Source: Gemmatimonas aurantiaca T-27 (GTDB lineage: Bacteria; Gemmatimonadota; Gemmatimonadetes; Gemmatimonadales; Gemmatimonadaceae). From it: a stretch of 64,000 nucleotides of DNA. The notes below the pieces were generated by a model. That model did no database searches and was not told where the DNA came from. It saw nothing but the letters and a program-made list of their open reading frames with translations. The DNA is taken from assembly GCF_000010305.1 (NCBI RefSeq), contig NC_012489.1:2611646-2675645 (forward strand), read 5' to 3'. Shown here in pieces: positions 11,929 to 61,293 of this stretch (position 1 is its first letter; each line of letters opens with the position of its first letter). Made by a program: the position numbers and the translations under genes.

Positions 11929-11948
11929 GCGAAGAAGATAGCCGCTCG

Positions 11949-11995
11949 ACCGTGACCGGGGTGGGGATCGAACCCACGACCTACGGATTAAAAGT
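11949..11995. repeat. attL, 47-bp copy of the tRNA-Lys 3' end
   Basis: Identical over 47 bp to 61247-61293. It covers the T arm, variable loop and the 3' half of the anticodon arm of tRNA-Lys, read on the minus strand, and then diverges abruptly at 11996. This is the displaced original 3' end of the host tRNA and not a functional gene. Confidence 0.97.
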
Positions 11996-17824: not shown

Positions 17825-18756
17825 GCATCGAAGAAGTGCTGTCGTCTGTCGGGCTGGTCCACTTCGCTGCGACAGATCAAGAGAAATCCCTCGCTGCGCG
17901 AGTGGTCACCGCCGAGCAGCGCGTGGCGGCGGTGGAGCGCGAGCATCAGGCGTTGCGTCGTCGGATCATGGACACAGTGCCGAAGGGACCACGCTGCCGG
18001 GACTGCGCCGACTGCAATGGCACATGCCAAAACGATGGCAAGACTCCATGCGATCCCGTGGAGCTCGCGTTCAGTCGCTTTGCTGCACTCGAAGCCAGGA
18101 GTGATCAACAGGCGGCGGTGGAGCGCACTATCGCCGCACTGCGCGAGCTTGATCAGCCAGTGTTCGTCGCCGCTTCGAAGGCCGCGTTTGAAGCCAGCAC
18201 TGGCAAGGATGCGAGCACGGCCAACATGGATGAAGTAGACCAGTACGTCGAAGTCGCAGCAGCCGTGATCACAGCCGCCCTCGCCGCCGCCGCGCCGGCA
18301 GCTACTAGTTCGAAAGTTGAGGCCAACGCTTCGAACTCTTCGAACAGTTCCGTTGAGTCAGCCCCGTTTCAGGGCCGAGTGATGCCGTGGCTGCTGGCAT
18401 GCTTCGGCGCAGAGATCGCGTCGGACAAGCTGGAGCGCAGCGATCGCTTCATCGAGGAGGCGCTCGAACTGGTGCAGGCAGGTGGCTTTGCGAAGGATCG
18501 CGTCCTGGCGCTGGTCGACTACGTGTTCAGCCGGCCTCAAGGCGCGATCAATCAGGAAGTGGGCGGCGTGATGGTGACGCTGGCTGCGTACTGCCTTGCT
18601 CACGGTACCGACATGCACGCAGCGGGCGAGACAGAGCTCGCTCGGGTTTGGACCAAGATCGAGAAGATTCGCGCCAAGCAAGCGGCGAAGCCGAGGGGAT
18701 CTGCGCTGCCGGTAGCGACCACCCCCACCCCGGGAGGGGCGCGCGATGGCGAGTGA
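17821..18756 (+). CDS. Phage protein with C-terminal MazG-like NTP pyrophosphohydrolase domain
   Basis: A 311-aa protein from a GTG overlapping the previous stop. The N-terminal part is a coiled coil (about 20-60) with a Cys cluster CRDCADCNGTCQ (about 60-72) that may bind zinc. A Ser/Asn-rich linker follows, whose DNA contains repeated TTCGAA palindromes. The last about 110 residues match a phage MazG-like module: RFIEEALELVQ, ALVDYVFSRPQG, QEVGGVMVTLAAYCLAHG, ETELARVWTKIEKI and a closing RAKQAAKPRGS. The Glu and Asp residues fit the metal site of dNTP pyrophosphohydrolases, which sanitise or rebalance nucleotide pools. Confidence 0.7.
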   Translation: MSIEEVLSSVGLVHFAATDQEKSLAARVVTAEQRVAAVEREHQALRRRIMDTVPKGPRCRDCADCNGTCQNDGKTPCDPVELAFSRFAALEARSDQQAAVERTIAALRELDQPVFVAASKAAFEASTGKDASTANMDEVDQYVEVAAAVITAALAAAAPAATSSKVEANASNSSNSSVESAPFQGRVMPWLLACFGAEIASDKLERSDRFIEEALELVQAGGFAKDRVLALVDYVFSRPQGAINQEVGGVMVTLAAYCLAHGTDMHAAGETELARVWTKIEKIRAKQAAKPRGSALPVATTPTPGGARDGE

Positions 18757-19111
18757 GCTGACGCGAGACCAGAAGAGTCTCATCCTGTACGTCGAGACGC
18801 GCTGTGTTGACCACGACGGCCTTCTCCGTGGCGAACAGATGAACCAGGAAGATCGCGAGAACCTGAAGGTCTTTCAGGAGTCCGGTCATCTCACCTACGG
18901 GCGCGTGCCTGCCATGATGCTGTCGAAGCTGAGTGGCCAGACCCATTGGGCAACACTGACCGATGCCGGCTTTGCGCTGGCACATGCTCTTCGCAAGGAG
19001 CGTGCGTCCCGGATCATCGGAGGGCACCGCAAGGAGATCGACGAGTGGGTAGCGGAACGCCGTGAACGAGCCACCGCGCCGGGCGCGCCGGAGGTGGTCG
19101 ATGGCGAGTGA
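18746..19111 (+). CDS. Small prophage protein, unknown
   Basis: A 121-aa protein overlapping the preceding gene by 11 bp. It contains LTRDQKSLILYVETR and WATLTDAGFALAHALRKER, spaced like the helices and wing of a winged-helix fold, but without a convincing recognition helix. It ends in TAPGAPEVVDGE, a C-terminal sequence shared in part with the next genes because the same DNA segment, which contains the ribosome-binding site of the following gene, is repeated at these junctions. Confidence 0.55.
   Translation: MASELTRDQKSLILYVETRCVDHDGLLRGEQMNQEDRENLKVFQESGHLTYGRVPAMMLSKLSGQTHWATLTDAGFALAHALRKERASRIIGGHRKEIDEWVAERRERATAPGAPEVVDGE
19071..19094 (+). repeat. Gene-junction repeat, copy 1
   Basis: A 24-bp element containing the palindrome GGCGCGCC and ending in GGAGG. 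It is identical to 19297-19320, and shorter versions occur at 19550-19566, 19923-19937 and 59422-59432. Each copy codes for the end of one protein and carries the ribosome-binding site of the next. Confidence 0.7.
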
Positions 19112-19328
19112 GCGCGACTGGGTTGGTCGCTTCGTCGCCAGCGTGCACACCACCGCACGCGCGATGCAAGAGGACTACCGCAACGGGCGGTATGCGTCGC
19201 CCGAGGCGTACCAAGACGACATCGACGCATCAGAGGCGTATTTCGTCGCGCGCCTCATTGGCTCGCTCGACGTCCTGCAATCACTCAATGCACAGCCCAC
19301 CGCGCCGGGCGCGCCGGAGGCCCTATGA
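19101..19328 (+). CDS. Small prophage protein, unknown
   Basis: A 75-aa acidic protein started at the ATG eight bases after the GGAGG of junction copy 1; an upstream in-frame start would lie deep in the preceding gene. Mostly helical (VGRFVASVHTTARAMQEDYR, then DIDASEAYFVARLIGSLDVL), with no recognised motif. It ends in TAPGAPEAL. Confidence 0.5.
   Translation: MASERDWVGRFVASVHTTARAMQEDYRNGRYASPEAYQDDIDASEAYFVARLIGSLDVLQSLNAQPTAPGAPEAL
19297..19320 (+). repeat. Gene-junction repeat, copy 2
   Basis: Identical over 24 bp to 19071-19094. Its terminal GGAGG is four bases from the ATG of the next gene. Confidence 0.7.
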
Positions 19329-19579
19329 AGAAGCGCCAGGTCGATCACAACTTGGAGGCCGAACACGCTCACGCGGACCTCAACGTGTGCGGCGCCATCT
19401 CGTCCATCTGCGAGCGGTCGAACTTCACGACGAAGAGCGGAAAGCGAATCGCGGAAAGAATCAACAAGCTCTGCTGGGAAGAGATCCACCGACAGGTACG
19501 CGCCATGGACCTGCATCGCGAGAAAGCTGGACGCCGTTACGGGCGTAGGCCGGGCGCGCCGGAGGTGGGGAATGGGTAA
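19325..19579 (+). CDS. Small prophage protein, unknown
   Basis: An 84-aa, mostly basic and helical protein whose ATG overlaps the previous stop as ATGA. It contains two Cys (LNVCGAISSICERS) and a third in NKLCWEE. No family recognised. It ends in RRPGAPEVGNG over the third junction element, from which the next gene's start is served. Confidence 0.5.
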   Translation: MKKRQVDHNLEAEHAHADLNVCGAISSICERSNFTTKSGKRIAERINKLCWEEIHRQVRAMDLHREKAGRRYGRRPGAPEVGNG

Positions 19580-19940
19580 GCGCTTACCTAGGGAGTCCAC
19601 GCCGTTGTCTGTGGAGTCCGTGCCGCTATCTGGGGAGTCAGCTCCCTATACAAGCGCGCAGGTCGCCCTCCTGCTGCGCTGCGCGCAGGCTGCTGCGATT
19701 GCACACGAGCTGTACCAGCACCACCAGGGGGTCGCAGAAGCCGTGGAGATCGGCGACGCGGACTGGACCGACGATGATGTCGCGATTGCGCACGACCGGT
19801 ACTACCACGCGATGGACGATCTGTCGGTCACGATTGCGGATCTCGCGAGTATCGTGTCCCCCACGCCGGTGGCGTCGGCGATGGATCGTGGGTTGCCGTT
19901 ACCACGGATCACGCGCGATGAAGCGCCGGAGGTGGGGTGA
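19572..19940 (+). CDS. Small prophage protein, unknown
   Basis: A 122-aa protein overlapping the previous gene by 8 bp. The N-terminus is a Ser/Pro/Glu repeat (STPLSVESVPLSGESAP) and the rest is a helical, acidic domain with several His (HELYQHHQG, IAHDRYYHAMDD), which might bind metal. It ends in EAPEVG over junction element 4. No family recognised. Confidence 0.5.
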   Translation: MGKRLPRESTPLSVESVPLSGESAPYTSAQVALLLRCAQAAAIAHELYQHHQGVAEAVEIGDADWTDDDVAIAHDRYYHAMDDLSVTIADLASIVSPTPVASAMDRGLPLPRITRDEAPEVG

Positions 19941-21607: not shown

Positions 21608-21759
21608 GAATCGTGTCAATCAAGGATCGTGCCACGCCAGGGGGTCGCGGGTCCTTCCGAAGCGATATGCCCATCGGGCGGCCGCAGACCCCTGGGTATT
21701 TCTATGTGAACGGCCGCCAGATGTCTCACTTTAGTTTAGTTCGCGGCCGGCATGAGTGA
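21604..21759 (+). CDS. Very small protein (51 aa)
   Basis: Fifty-one residues, with ATG overlapping the previous stop as ATGA and the end overlapping the terminase small-subunit start by 8 bp. Contains MPIGRPQTPGYFYVNGRQMS. No recognised motif. The overlaps are the main support. Confidence 0.4.
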   Translation: MRIVSIKDRATPGGRGSFRSDMPIGRPQTPGYFYVNGRQMSHFSLVRGRHE

Positions 21760-22261
21760 TGGGCATACGTTCTCGCAAACGCAGATGGCGGCCATCCTCG
21801 GAGTGACCTCGCCCACGATTCGGGCGGCGATCGACGAGGGCGCACCCGGGGTGCATGCGCAGGGCTCGCGCGGAACGAAGGGCAAGATCGACGCGACACA
21901 GTTTGTCCCATGGTGGATCGAGCGAGAGCGCAGCCGCGCCCGCGAGAAGGACAAGGGTCAGTCCCAAGCCGCCATCGAGCGCGAACTCGACATCGAGATG
22001 AAGCGCGAGAAGCTGCTCAAAGAAAAGCGGGAAGCGCTGCCCCGCGCCGTCATGGTGAACACTCTGCGCGACGTCGCAACGCGATTGAATGTCACCATCA
22101 CACAAATGCCCGATCGCGAAGCGGACACGATCATCGGGCTACGCGACAGGGAATCGGCCCGGGAGGCACTGCAACTGATCGCCGAGAGCCTGCGCGGGGA
22201 TCTGCGATCGCCAGAGGCGTGGATGCCGCCGGAGCTCCCCCAGCTCGAGCTCTCCGCCTGA
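21752..22261 (+). CDS. Terminase small subunit (Nu1-like)
   Basis: DNA-recognition subunit of the packaging motor, 169 aa. The N-terminal winged-helix segment FSQTQMAAILGVTSPTIRAA is a clear helix-turn-helix followed by a Gly-rich wing (GSRGTKGKID). The middle is a long charged helix (IERERSRAREKDKGQ through MKREKLLKEKREALPRA), as in Nu1/gp1-type small subunits. The C-terminal helix should contact the large subunit, which begins at an ATG sharing a base with this stop. Confidence 0.82.
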   Translation: MSDGHTFSQTQMAAILGVTSPTIRAAIDEGAPGVHAQGSRGTKGKIDATQFVPWWIERERSRAREKDKGQSQAAIERELDIEMKREKLLKEKREALPRAVMVNTLRDVATRLNVTITQMPDREADTIIGLRDRESAREALQLIAESLRGDLRSPEAWMPPELPQLELSA

Positions 22262-24312
22262 TGCTGCTGTCCCTCGAACGTCTGCAGGAAGCCACGATCT
22301 CCGCATATCTGGACGTCGCGGCGATCATGGGCGAAGCCTTCGCGCAGCGAGAGCTCCTCGGCCTCGCCAAGTGGGCGGAGACCTACTACCGCCTGCCGCC
22401 GGACAGCGCCGTCCAGGGGCTATTCCGGTTTGCCCGCTCGCCGTATCTCCGGGAGCCCGCGCAGATGCTGCAGGATCCGCGCGTGAAGCAGGTGGTGGTG
22501 GCCAAGGGGTCGCAGTTGTTCTTCACCACGCTAGCGCAGATTTGGAAGGGTTGGACGATGGATGAAGATCCGGCGTCCATGATCTGCGTCTGGCCCTCTG
22601 AAGGGCTGCTGAAGCGCTATGTCATCACGCGCATCAATCCGATGCTCGAGGATGTGATCCCGTTGAGGAAGATCTTCACCCGATCGGGACTCCGTGACTC
22701 GGACGACAGCTTCAAGTACAAAGGATTCCCCGGTGGCGGCATATCCTTCGTGACCGGTCGGTCGTCGTCGCAGCTGAAGTCGATGACCGCCCAGCGCATG
22801 CACGTTTCGGAGCTCGACGAACTTGAGCCGGACGTGAAGGGCCAAGGTGATCCACTCGATCAGGCACGCCGTGCACTGCGCACGCATCCCCGCGGCAAGG
22901 AGTACTTGGAGTGCACTCCCACCATCGCGGGTCGTTCACGCGTGTGGCAGGAACTCAAGCTCTCCTCGTGGCGCGAGCTGCACCTGATGTGTCCCGGTGA
23001 GAACTGCAACTATCCGCAGGTGTTGCGGTGGCGGGAAGGCCAAGAAGATGGCGACAACGAGGGGGCCGGTCGCTTCAATTTCGTCTACGAGCTCGACACC
23101 GCCGGACGTATCGTGCCGGAGTCTACCCGCTATGTCTGCGTGAAGTGCGGGATGAAGATTGAACACAAGTGGAAGCGCGCCATGGTGACCGAGGGAAACT
23201 GGGTTCCACGCTACCCGGACCGCATCGCCTTCCAGGGCTATCATCTCAGTGCCCTCTACTCCCTCGCGGAAGGCTACGACTGGGACGTCTGTGCCCAGAT
23301 GTGCGTGAATGGGCTCACTGATCCCGCGAAGCAGAAGGTGGCGATCAATACGATCCTCGCCCTGCCCTACGAGGAGAAGGAAGCCAGCGGCAATCCTCGG
23401 GGGATGCAAGCCCGCGCCCATGAGTACGGCGTGGAGATCCCCTTCGGGGTCGTGCTCATCACGATCAGCGTCGACGTGCAGATCGATCGCGTGGAGTATC
23501 AAGTAATGGGCTTCGGCGCGGGTCTCGAATGGTGGTTGATCGAGTGGGGGCGTCTCGAAGGTGATCCGGGCAAGGGCCGTCCTGGAAGAGCTCCCGTATG
23601 GACCGAACTCGAAGATGTACTGAATCGCGACTGGGTTGACGCGGATGGCGTGTGCTACGACCCCAAGGCGATCGCCATCGACGCCGGCTATCTGCAGGAG
23701 CATGTGCGGGCGTTTTGCGCACGCTTCACAACGAAGGATGGTGTCCGGCCGATCCACACCATGGGCCGCGCTGGGCGCGCCCGACCCCTGCTCGAGAAGC
23801 CGAAGGCAGAGACAACCCGCCGCCGCCGGCGAGCACGCAAGCCGTCGTACATTATCGGCACCGACACGATGAACGACCTGCTCTATGCGCGCTTTCGCAT
23901 TGAGCAACCGGGCCCCGGCTACCTGCACACGCCCACCGATCGCGACATCGATCAGGCCTGGTATGACCAGATCTACAACGAGAGCCTGCAGGAAGTGGTC
24001 GAGCGCGGCTTACGCGTGAAAAAGTGGCTGCCGGTGAATGAGGACGCACCGAACGAAGCCATCGACCTGACCCGCGGATGCTATGCGGCGCTGGTGTCGC
24101 TGGGGCAAAAGGTCATGCTGCAGCTCGAGACGATGCGCCCACCGTCGCCTACCGCCGCCGTGAAGCCTCGCGGCGTCGTCAGCAGCACCGAACCCCTGCC
24201 CGAAGCCACGATCGAGCCTGAGGAGGTCCCTGTAGCCCCGAAGCGTGCCGCTCGCATTGCACGTCGTCGGCCTCGTGGCCCCTCTGGCATGATCTCCGAG
24301 GCCGTCGAGTAG
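22261..24312 (+). CDS. Terminase large subunit (lambda GpA-like)
   Basis: Packaging ATPase and nuclease, 683 aa, GpA family. The N-terminal ATPase region shows VVVAKGSQLFFTTLAQIW (P-loop-like, with Ser-Gln in place of the usual Gly-Lys order, as in other GpA proteins) and VSELDELEPD (Walker B region). A Cys cluster (CPGENC, then CVKC) looks like a zinc site. The nuclease domain includes LITISVDVQIDRVEYQVMGF and IAIDAGYLQEHV, with Asp residues for metal. Its TAG is followed at once by a GTG-started winged-helix gene. Confidence 0.92.
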   Translation: MLLSLERLQEATISAYLDVAAIMGEAFAQRELLGLAKWAETYYRLPPDSAVQGLFRFARSPYLREPAQMLQDPRVKQVVVAKGSQLFFTTLAQIWKGWTMDEDPASMICVWPSEGLLKRYVITRINPMLEDVIPLRKIFTRSGLRDSDDSFKYKGFPGGGISFVTGRSSSQLKSMTAQRMHVSELDELEPDVKGQGDPLDQARRALRTHPRGKEYLECTPTIAGRSRVWQELKLSSWRELHLMCPGENCNYPQVLRWREGQEDGDNEGAGRFNFVYELDTAGRIVPESTRYVCVKCGMKIEHKWKRAMVTEGNWVPRYPDRIAFQGYHLSALYSLAEGYDWDVCAQMCVNGLTDPAKQKVAINTILALPYEEKEASGNPRGMQARAHEYGVEIPFGVVLITISVDVQIDRVEYQVMGFGAGLEWWLIEWGRLEGDPGKGRPGRAPVWTELEDVLNRDWVDADGVCYDPKAIAIDAGYLQEHVRAFCARFTTKDGVRPIHTMGRAGRARPLLEKPKAETTRRRRRARKPSYIIGTDTMNDLLYARFRIEQPGPGYLHTPTDRDIDQAWYDQIYNESLQEVVERGLRVKKWLPVNEDAPNEAIDLTRGCYAALVSLGQKVMLQLETMRPPSPTAAVKPRGVVSSTEPLPEATIEPEEVPVAPKRAARIARRRPRGPSGMISEAVE

Positions 24313-24689
24313 TGGATCCGCTGCCCATCCTGCGTGAAATTCGCACGGATCTCGATGTCACCACCAGCGAGCAGGTGGCATTCTGGGCCGCGCTTGAGCG
24401 CCTCGATGTGGTGGAGTGGCGCCGACTGTCGATTACGCAGTTGGAGCGCGAAGTAGAGCGCTTGCAGCACCGCAAAGAGCAACGCATGTCGCGATCAACG
24501 ATCGCACGGGCTTTCAATGGTCTGGTTTCAAAGGGCTACATCCTCCACCAAGAAGACGCAGGCGCCGATTGCTACCGAATCCCGGCGTCCCGCCGTCGCG
24601 AGGACCGCCAGGAGGTGCCATCACCGCACGGTCAACGTCGATCGATTCGGCGCACCCGCGGCGGACTGTTGAGCGAAGCGATTGAGTGA
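24312..24689 (+). CDS. Winged-helix DNA-binding protein
   Basis: A 125-aa protein starting at a GTG sharing a base with the terminase stop. The central part, LSITQLEREVERL through RSTIARAFNGLVSKGYI followed by HQEDAGADCYRI, is a winged helix-turn-helix of the MarR/DnaD-like kind, with recognition helix about residues 60-75. The C-terminus is basic (RRSIRRTRGG). It sits directly before a 273-bp non-coding gap full of inverted repeats, so it is a good candidate to bind them and either control late transcription or aid packaging. Confidence 0.65.
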   Translation: MDPLPILREIRTDLDVTTSEQVAFWAALERLDVVEWRRLSITQLEREVERLQHRKEQRMSRSTIARAFNGLVSKGYILHQEDAGADCYRIPASRRREDRQEVPSPHGQRRSIRRTRGGLLSEAIE

Positions 24690-24962
24690 TCGCGCAACTC
24701 TTTCGTCATCTCGTGTCACGTGAAACGAGGTGACGAAACTACTTTCGTCAGCTCAAACAGTGCTGTTTGTGAAAATTGGTGTCCCACAAATGAACATGAC
24801 GAAAGAGTTTGCCAATTGGCATGCGTTTTCAGAGGAGAAATGCCCTCCATTTCACGACTCTTTCGTCATCTCACTTTATTGATGCAAAGGTGTCCCATTC
24901 GTGGGACAGCAAAATTGCGAAACACATGGCGGAAGTGACTTGCGCTGCTGATACATGCGCAC
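24690..24962. promoter_or_regulatory. Palindrome-rich non-coding gap between terminase and portal modules
   Basis: This is the only long gap in the structural operon and is clearly AT-richer than its surroundings. It holds five copies of TTTCGTCA, at 24701, 24743 and 24861 forward and at 24731 and 24797 reversed. Two of them form TGACGAAA-CTAC-TTTCGTCA (24731-24750), extended to 12-bp arms with one mismatch. A 16-bp direct repeat, ACTCTTTCGTCATCTC, is at 24697 and 24857. Other dyads are CAAACAG-TG-CTGTTTG (24754-24769), TGCCAATTGGCA (24810-24821) and TGTCCCA-TTCG-TGGGACA (24891-24908). It could be a late promoter/operator, the packaging start or a second origin. Confidence 0.65.
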
Positions 24963-25184
24963 ATGACGCGTGCGCAGAAGATCACCGAGGTCGAGCAGTC
25001 GCTTGCTGAAGTGAAGGTCGCCATCAGTCGCATCGTGACTGGCGGACAGGCCTATGGTGCGGAAAACCGGACCATGCAGCGCGCTGATTTGAAAGTGTTG
25101 CAGGATCGTCAGACCGCGCTCGAAGGCGAGCTGGCACGGCTGCAGCGCAAGCATCGCATCTCCACGTACGGAGTGGCACTCTGA
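24963..25184 (+). CDS. Head-tail joining protein (gpW/DUF6148-like)
   Basis: A 73-aa protein. The pattern of an N-terminal helix (QKITEVEQSLAEVKVAISRI), then TGGQAYGAENRTMQRADLKV and a final helix rich in Glu/Arg, matches small gpW-like proteins encoded between terminase and portal in lambda-type phages. Such proteins close the portal ring and connect it to the tail. The portal ATG overlaps its stop. Confidence 0.75.
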   Translation: MTRAQKITEVEQSLAEVKVAISRIVTGGQAYGAENRTMQRADLKVLQDRQTALEGELARLQRKHRISTYGVAL

Positions 25185-27010
25185 TGGCGCGCCGAAATGC
25201 GATGCGCTATGTGGCCGCCCAACGACGTCTACGTGCTCTGAACGCGGATGGTGCGGTGCCAACGCGTTCCGCCATGGTGTCGGGTCCGGTGCGTCGCAGT
25301 CGTGGCGCCTATGAATCTGCACGCCGCGATGTCCGCGAATTCAAGCTGTGGGACCCCACGCTTGGCTCGGCCGCGACCGATACCCTGCCCGATCTGCCCA
25401 CGTTGCGCGCTCGCGCCTACGACGCTGATCGGAATCAGCCGCTTGCCGCAGGCATCACCGAGACCAACCTCGATCACGTCATCGGGACTGGGCTCTATCC
25501 GGTGCCGACACCGGATCGCGAGCTACTCGACATCACCGAAGATCAGGCACGGACCTTTGTTCGGCAGGTACGTCGCCTGTGGCGCATGGTGAACGACACC
25601 ACGCGTCTCCACTACAGCGATCGCCTCACGGGACTGCAAATGCAGTGGGGCATGCTGCGATCGGCGATCGCCGGTGGTGACACCTTCGCGGTGCGTCGGT
25701 TTCGTGAGCGGCCTGGGGATCTGTTGGGCCTCAAGCTGCAGTGGCTCGAAGCGCCTCGCGTGTCCAATCCCAATGGTGGATGGGATAGCGAGTGGCTGCA
25801 AGACGGCCTCGTGTTCGACGAGGAGCGCCGCAACTCCCATATCTGGGTTGGGTCGCAGCATCCCGGCGAGCGCCTGTTCTATGCTCCGACGACGTGGGAA
25901 CAGTTGCCGGTGTACGGGCCCGACACAGGCGACCGACAGATCCTGCACATCCTCGAACAGCGGCGCTTCGATCAGCCCCGTGGCGTGCCGCTGCTTGCGA
26001 CGGTGCTGCGCAATCTGCGCCAGTCGGACGAAGGGATCGCGAATGAGTTGACGGCGTCGCTGGTACAGTCGCTGTTCACCGTATTCGTCAAGACGCAGCT
26101 GGGCGACGAGTTCGATGACCAGGAGATCATCCAGTCGCTCGGCAACGGCGATGGTCGACATTACGGCCCGCCGCCCGATAAGCAGGAGCTTCGCCTTGGG
26201 CGCGGCGCAGTGGCGCGATTGGAGCCTGGTGAAGACATCACGCTCGCCGGCACCAATCGCCCGAACATCAACCTGACCGCGTTCCTCGGTGAGGTATTGG
26301 CGCACACCGGCGCCGGCGTCGGCATGCCGCCAGAGCTCATCCTCAAGCGGTTCCAGACGAGCTACACCGCTGCACAAGCGGCGATGCAGGAGGCCTATCG
26401 TGCCTTCGATCGGCGTCAGACGTGGGCTGTTGAAACGGGCGTTGGTCCGATCTACGAGATGTTCGTCGACGAGTGCGTGCTGCGCGGTTACGTCGACGCG
26501 CCGGGCTTCCACGACGATCCGCTCATGCGAGCCGCGTGGCTACGCGTGGAGTTCCGTGGCCCGTCCAAGACGCAGCTCGATGAGCTAAAGGCCGTTCTAG
26601 CGGCGGAGCGTCGCGTAGCGGCTGGCTTCTCGACGATTGAACACGAGACAACGGCTCTCACCGGGTTGGATGCAGACCAGGTCCACGAAGTCCGCGTGCG
26701 CGAGACGCAGCGGCGCGTCACCGATGGGTTGGAAGTTCCCGCCACAGCCACTGCTCTGCCGAACAAGCCCACCCGGCCGCGTGACATGATGCGTCCCGAC
26801 GACACTGGCCGTGAGGATGACGAGGGGGGTTCGGACGACGATCGCGAGGCGGTCCCAGAGCGTGAACGCACCGACGGACGGCTCGCACGCCGCCGACCGC
26901 GCATAGCCGCTAGCCGCACCGCCAAGCCGAAGCCTCGCGCCAAGCGCTCCCTCGCGGATGCGGCGATTGATCACCTCATCCAGGGGACGTTGCTCGATGC
27001 CACGCGATGA
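25184..27010 (+). CDS. Portal protein (lambda gpB-like)
   Basis: Dodecameric portal through which DNA enters and leaves the head, 608 aa. Recognisable segments are RARAYDADRNQPLAAGITET, VGTGLYP-type motif (VIGTGLYPVP), FAVRRFRERPGD, the stretch with QHPGERLFYAPTTWEQL, and DQPRGVPLLATVLRNLRQ. The C-terminal about 60 residues are a Lys/Arg-rich tail that may contact DNA or scaffold. The overlap with the protease gene downstream is 14 bp. Confidence 0.9.
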   Translation: MARRNAMRYVAAQRRLRALNADGAVPTRSAMVSGPVRRSRGAYESARRDVREFKLWDPTLGSAATDTLPDLPTLRARAYDADRNQPLAAGITETNLDHVIGTGLYPVPTPDRELLDITEDQARTFVRQVRRLWRMVNDTTRLHYSDRLTGLQMQWGMLRSAIAGGDTFAVRRFRERPGDLLGLKLQWLEAPRVSNPNGGWDSEWLQDGLVFDEERRNSHIWVGSQHPGERLFYAPTTWEQLPVYGPDTGDRQILHILEQRRFDQPRGVPLLATVLRNLRQSDEGIANELTASLVQSLFTVFVKTQLGDEFDDQEIIQSLGNGDGRHYGPPPDKQELRLGRGAVARLEPGEDITLAGTNRPNINLTAFLGEVLAHTGAGVGMPPELILKRFQTSYTAAQAAMQEAYRAFDRRQTWAVETGVGPIYEMFVDECVLRGYVDAPGFHDDPLMRAAWLRVEFRGPSKTQLDELKAVLAAERRVAAGFSTIEHETTALTGLDADQVHEVRVRETQRRVTDGLEVPATATALPNKPTRPRDMMRPDDTGREDDEGGSDDDREAVPERERTDGRLARRRPRIAASRTAKPKPRAKRSLADAAIDHLIQGTLLDATR

Positions 27011-61228: not shown

Positions 61229-61246
61229 GTGAGGAGGCTCCGCTTC

Positions 61247-61293
61247 ACCGTGACCGGGGTGGGGATCGAACCCACGACCTACGGATTAAAAGT
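61247..61293. repeat. attR, 47-bp repeat within tRNA-Lys
   Basis: Identical to 11949-11995. The phage-borne copy restores the 3' part of the tRNA gene, so integration does not destroy it. Confidence 0.97.

Follow-up and report, generated by a model that had tools for sequence, protein, structure and literature searches.

The locus described here lies within a lambda-type prophage of about 49.3 kb in the chromosome of Gemmatimonas aurantiaca T-27, and was analysed as part of a 64-kb stretch of DNA, hereafter termed the window. The prophage ends are two copies of a 54-bp direct repeat (96%; 11942-11995 and 61240-61293), the second of which falls within a tRNA-Lys gene. The late genes follow the order TerS, TerL, a 125-aa ORF, the segment 24690-24962, gpW, portal, an S49 protease, and the head decoration protein D (Table 1). 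A previous interpretation made without database searches, here called the sequence-only reading, placed the segment between the terminase and portal genes and just after a gene for a winged-helix (wHTH) protein. The second of these statements holds to the nucleotide, the wHTH gene stopping at 24689 and the segment starting at 24690, and the first can be made more precise: the segment separates the wHTH gene from gpW, and portal starts only after gpW.

Table 1. Features of the TerS-to-portal region of the prophage (positions are those of the window)
Feature	Position	Strand	Basis or remark
Cos-like 16-mer GGTCGCGGGTCCTTCC, upstream of TerS	21643..21658 (first base maybe 21644, at most one off)	+	exact scan of IMG/VR
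TerS	21752-22261		
TerL, gpA type	about 22300-24312		
125-aa winged-helix (wHTH) gene	24312..24689	+	GTG start overlaps TerL stop
Noncoding, AT-rich, repeat-dense region between wHTH gene and gpW	24690..24962	.	repeat and GC analysis
38-bp inverted repeat from boxes 1 and 2 (19-bp arms, 2 mismatches)	24701..24738	.	
14-bp inverted repeat	24696-24709/24796-24809		
TTTCGTCA box 1	24701..24708	+	inside 16-mer ACTCTTTCGTCATCTC, 24697-24712
28-bp near-perfect dyad from boxes 2 and 3, operator-like	24727..24754	.	core TGACGAAA-CTAC-TTTCGTCA
TTTCGTCA box 2	24731..24738	-	exact-match scan
TTTCGTCA box 3	24743..24750	+	exact-match scan
Perfect dyad CAAACAGTGCTGTTTG	24754..24769	.	
29-nt inverted pair at 76%	24764-24792/24896-24924		contains GTGTCCCA
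TTTCGTCA box 4	24797..24804	-	exact-match scan
Perfect dyad TGCCAATTGGCA	24810..24821	.	
TTTCGTCA box 5	24861..24868	+	inside 16-mer 24857-24872; about 100 nt 5' of gpW start
Perfect dyad TGTCCCATTCGTGGGACA	24891..24908	.	has GGTGTCCCA in common with 24778-24786
gpW head-tail connector gene, first of proposed head-tail transcription unit	24963..25184	+	phrog_118 head-tail adaptor, E 1.9e-9
Portal gene, second in proposed unit	25184..27010	+	Phage_portal_2, E 8.5e-85

The segment has a GC content of 46.9% against 64.9% for the window, in line with the earlier remark that it is AT-richer than its surroundings; in fact, it is the lowest-GC place of the 64 kb, and the two dozen lowest-GC windows of 273 bp all overlap it. 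Its description as a dense cluster of palindromes and repeats within 273 bp also stands, with every listed item present. These include five exact TTTCGTCA boxes alternating in orientation (+,-,+,-,+) within 168 bp, a 16-bp direct repeat of which both copies, at 24697 and 24857, are identical, and three further perfect dyads; the 28-bp dyad is likewise there, but is near-perfect rather than perfect, with one mismatch in its 12-bp arms. The segment includes a 20-bp 8-4-8 palindrome, and three inverted repeats that the earlier description did not contain, of 38 bp, 14 bp, and 29 nt, are listed in Table 1. Pairs of matching 8-mers number 37 in the segment versus 2.6 expected, a value reached in none of 400 dinucleotide shuffles.

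TTTCGTCA occurs eight times in the window, where 1.29 copies are expected (eight or more in none of 100 shuffles), and 86 times in the 4.64-Mb genome, a single contig of 4,636,964 bp. At this genomic frequency, five copies in one 273-bp stretch are not a product of chance (Poisson P about 3e-14, or about 5e-10 genome-wide), and no second cluster of such boxes is present in the genome. When two mismatches were allowed, boxes of the TTTCGTCA type showed no clear enrichment elsewhere in the prophage (20 vs 13.5 expected), and helical phasing of the five boxes was not significant (P 0.08). A search of the segment against Rfam gave no match. The dyad TGTCCCATTCGTGGGACA fits TGT-N12-ACA, the form of P2 Ogr sites; as a candidate terminator it was ruled out, as no T-run follows the dyad. 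Also set aside, as a chance occurrence, was a 32-aa ORF with a good ribosome site (24840-24938), which overlaps the repeats, had no counterpart that we saw, and has a third-codon GC of about 47% (counted by eye) compared with about 70-80% in phage genes.

The ORF adjoining the segment codes for a small, basic protein (125 aa, pI 9.6). Its AlphaFold model, built from an alignment of eight sequences, has a mean pLDDT of 82, with values exceeding 90 for most residues from 11 to 90, and is predicted to adopt the H-H-H-H-E-E order of a winged helix. A profile of the eight homologous sequences matched MarR/SlyA chains in the PDB (best E 1.2e-5), and MarR_2 was matched at E<0.1 by five of the eight family members; the window protein itself had no Pfam MarR match at E<0.1. 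Foldseek comparison of the model with the PDB returned generic winged-helix matches only, none at E <= 0.001. Searches of Pfam, PHROGs, and NCBIfam yielded no assignment above cut-off, the protein scoring below every Pfam gathering threshold and the Ltr and RinA families being absent among its matches, and a single-sequence search for relatives in IMG/VR and the phage collection found none. The segment and the wHTH gene together constitute a real, well-defined, regulatory-looking module, of which the wHTH protein is the proposed cognate DNA-binding regulator.

For comparison, portal homologues were gathered from 80 loci each of GTDB and IMG/VR and from seven Gemmatimonadota genomes, that of the host among them, and the TerL-portal junction was compared in the 156 loci that have TerL and portal in order. 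Homologues of the wHTH gene that overlap the TerL stop were found in nine other gpA-terminase loci, eight of them distinct (L224, L235, L132, L133, L140, L227, L260, and the pair L237 and L242, which represent the same phage). All nine matched the family profile at E 5e-17 or better, including L140, which had been left out of profile building. The homologues are remote, with 15-32% identity to the window protein, and those of L224 and L235 have close relatives only in the form of near-identical copies. In all of these loci, about 50-190 bp of noncoding DNA separate the wHTH gene from gpW/portal. Unlike small HTH-like ORFs, as judged by eye, occupy the same place in L256, L245, L265, L268, L291, and L253. 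The same layout is also found in an isolated phage, Sulfurimonas phage SNW-1, in which a 108-aa ORF that overlaps the TerL stop is followed, after a gap of 124 bp, by a gpW-sized gene and portal, although the SNW-1 gap differs from that of the window in having no TTTCGTCA boxes. Most phages of the set have little or no TerL-gpW gap, and the arrangement is therefore facultative. The earlier statement that no standard element is known at this place in lambda-type phages thus fits lambda itself, where W overlaps A without a gap, but not the other gpA-terminase phages, where gaps are common. A further homologue was seen in another prophage from this genus (L310, 1483-1830), where it lies directly before TerS-like and TerL-like genes.

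In every wHTH-bearing locus the gap is AT-richer than its flanks. By the shuffle test, repeat content is significant in the gaps of the window, L235, L237, L260, and L250 and borderline in that of L224, and no enrichment was found in the gaps of the wHTH-bearing loci L132, L227, and L140. The gap of L235 contains TTCGCA boxes and an imperfect 30-bp direct repeat (P 0.0075), that of L237 a 32-bp near-palindrome (P 0.025), that of L224 copies of ACGACAAC (P 0.05), and that of L260 a 31-bp sequence twice in tandem (0 of 400 shuffles); L224, L235, and L237, with their AT-rich, repeat-bearing gaps, are the three wHTH relatives closest to the window by portal. Related excisionase-like HTH proteins are encoded after TerL in L245, L265, and L268, whose gaps have TGTGCA-containing direct repeats in common, and these proteins and repeats possibly form another cognate pair. 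A search for conserved TTTCGTCA boxes at the same spot in related prophages, proposed in the sequence-only reading as a check, found none in any relative; it is the layout that recurs instead. Among the loci compared, then, the sequence of the boxes is not conserved, yet the pairing of a repeat array with a neighboring HTH gene recurs.

Signals of transcription are also evident at this junction in the relatives. In L224, L235, and L237, a TATAA(A/G) hexamer starts exactly 101 nt upstream of gpW, and three loci with the hexamer at one distance arose in none of 3000 shuffles of the nine gaps. L224 and L235 have CATCTATAAAGCG in common in otherwise dissimilar gaps, and in L235 the hexamer directly follows a TTTTCGCA box; box 5 of the window (TTTCGTCATCT) is about as far from gpW as the L235 hexamer. 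No -35 element is evident in these three gaps, which would fit an activator-dependent promoter. In the window gap, a scan for sigma70-like promoters found none, no hexamer on either strand matches TATAAT at five of six positions, and no intrinsic terminator, i.e. a GC hairpin followed by a T-run, is present; the minus-strand sequence CATCAATAAAGTG at 24873-24885 matches the promoter-like 13-mer of L224 and L235 at 11 of 13 positions in the wrong orientation. Of the 63 pre-gpW gaps that reach 60 nt or more, 15 contain a terminator-like hairpin, versus 3.7 expected and two in coding controls. In Vibrio phage X29, three genes on the opposite strand separate TerL from gpW, so that the head genes are probably transcribed from a promoter located there. 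The hexamers, the terminators, and the X29 arrangement suggest that the TerL-gpW junction is a transcription-unit boundary in part of the group. The L249 gap makes a clean case for a late-operon leader: a 22-bp palindrome overlaps a promoter of textbook-like form (TTGACT-N18-TACATA), and a strong terminator follows immediately upstream of gpW.

We consider it reasonably probable that the segment is the operator/promoter region of the head-tail operon and is bound by the adjoining wHTH protein, much as in the staphylococcal late regulators. A late promoter and operator was one of three functions suggested beforehand, and it is the best supported of them in view of the position of the segment, the adjoining wHTH gene, the repeat-rich gap, and the signals in relatives; its main weakness is that the window itself has no -10 hexamer or terminator. 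In the mechanism that we infer, as regards binding of the boxes by the wHTH protein, the presence of a promoter in the segment, the direction in which it reads, and whether its control is positive or negative, transcription of the packaging genes would run on into the wHTH gene. The wHTH protein would then occupy the TTTCGTCA boxes, as a dimer on those paired in inverted orientation, and once bound would control a promoter within the segment from which gpW, portal, the protease, and the capsid and tail genes would be transcribed. The protein would probably act as an activator in the manner of Ltr, but might instead be a repressor or a self-limiting regulator.

In the Staphylococcus aureus phage phi13, the Ltr gene is situated directly upstream of the late promoter P23, and late transcription requires the repeat boxes of this promoter (PMC13123087). 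The window module resembles the Ltr/RinA systems in that a small basic DNA-binding protein is encoded directly upstream of a repeat-bearing region leading into structural genes, and also in the number of repeats, about four at the Ltr/RinA promoters and five boxes, inverted and direct mixed, in the window. The differences are several: Ltr precedes the whole packaging/late cluster whereas the window gene lies after TerL and before gpW; the window boxes alternate in orientation rather than being in tandem; and the window has neither a family match nor, downstream of its repeats, the TATA-like -10 that is present in L224, L235, and L237. It is plausible by analogy that the module works like phi13 Ltr-P23. 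The wHTH protein is not an Ltr/RinA family member, because both homology and a -10 were looked for and neither was found. Lambda offers another comparison, its late promoter pR'-tR' having a leader terminator. Several relatives carry an intrinsic terminator directly before gpW as in pR'-tR', making a promoter-leader-terminator layout plausible there, and it is in the absence of such a terminator that the window differs from lambda. Finally, the predicted winged-helix fold, the MarR-type profile matches, and the 8-4-8 palindrome are features in common with MarR/SlyA regulators, from which the window protein departs by falling below the Pfam MarR gathering score.

The segment might instead be a control region bound by a host protein or by another phage protein, with the wHTH gene serving some other job. 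The wHTH homologues that adjoin the repeat-poor gaps of L132, L227, and L140, and the L310 homologue, which another phage of this genus carries just before TerS, would accord with this arrangement. We consider it unlikely, however, given that the wHTH gene adjoins the boxes, that wHTH genes and AT-rich, repeat-bearing gaps occur together in the closest relatives, and that the prophage has no further box clusters. The second origin contemplated in the sequence-only reading would entail iteron-like boxes acted upon by the wHTH protein as a small initiator. An AT-rich region with iteron-like repeats beside a small wHTH gene has this appearance, and the protein weakly matches profiles of phage replication-initiation families (E 0.03 at best), but its best profile matches are to MarR-type transcription regulators. 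The prophage moreover carries helicase-like and primosomal-like genes at 12.8-16 kb, the replication-type genes thus lying 8-12 kb from the segment, and the gaps of relatives hold a promoter-like hexamer at a fixed distance from gpW and intrinsic terminators. An origin at this site is accordingly unlikely.

We give still less credence to a packaging element, in the form of a cos or pac site or of a secondary terminase-binding site by the terminase genes. The segment does neighbor TerL, and its 16-bp boxes resemble the R sites of lambda cosB, which are short repeated boxes near the terminase genes. Yet a conserved cosN-like sequence, when sought, was located not in the segment but upstream of TerS, at 21643, and this also speaks against the packaging recognition site envisaged earlier. 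An exact scan of IMG/VR with this 16-mer, GGTCGCGGGTCCTTCC, identified 116 contigs, 80 of which have TerL; in 70 of these 80 TerL lies 300-1300 bp downstream on the same strand, in none is it present only on the opposite strand, and several viral contigs end 20-45 bp from the 16-mer. In lambda, the cohesive end is 12 bases long, and the left end, GGGCGGCGACCTCGCGGGTTTTCGC, has TCGCGGGT in common with GGTCGCGGGTCCTTCC around the end of this stretch. As judged from this conservation, packaging most likely starts at about 21.64 kb, and the segment is thus not needed to explain packaging; relatives with the same type of terminase also have no TTTCGTCA box in the TerL-gpW gap. The 16-mer constitutes a simple DNA landmark for the packaging start in gpA-terminase phages. 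Lastly, that the segment is a small inserted, MITE-like mobile element with no phage role, as its AT-richness, nested inverted repeats (among them GCGCAACTC/GACTTGCGC, close to the two edges), and strong single-strand folding (z -5.9 as DNA) might imply, is barely credible for a sequence that has no second copy in the genome and chance-level matches only in the phage collection, at a position where many related phages likewise have a noncoding gap.

If the operator/promoter reading is right, the prophage carries a regulator-operator pair dedicated to the head genes, which can be tested in vitro, and many gpA-terminase phages are predicted to regulate their head genes apart from terminase. More tentatively, one may speculate about an undescribed and widespread late-gene switch of gpA-terminase phages, in which a fast-evolving, exchangeable HTH gene between TerL and gpW, together with its own cognate repeat array, would uncouple head and tail from terminase expression, the HTH type and the boxes being replaced together. 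To our knowledge, late-gene control has been worked out for few phages, and for none infecting Gemmatimonadota; among the titles listed in literature searches, none concerned late-gene control in Gemmatimonadota phages. Elsewhere in the prophage, the products of consecutive small ORFs at 18746-19940 end in a similar way, in PGAPE or APEV, and GC-rich repeats at 19071-19104, 19297-19320, and 19549-19575 code for this C-terminal stretch.
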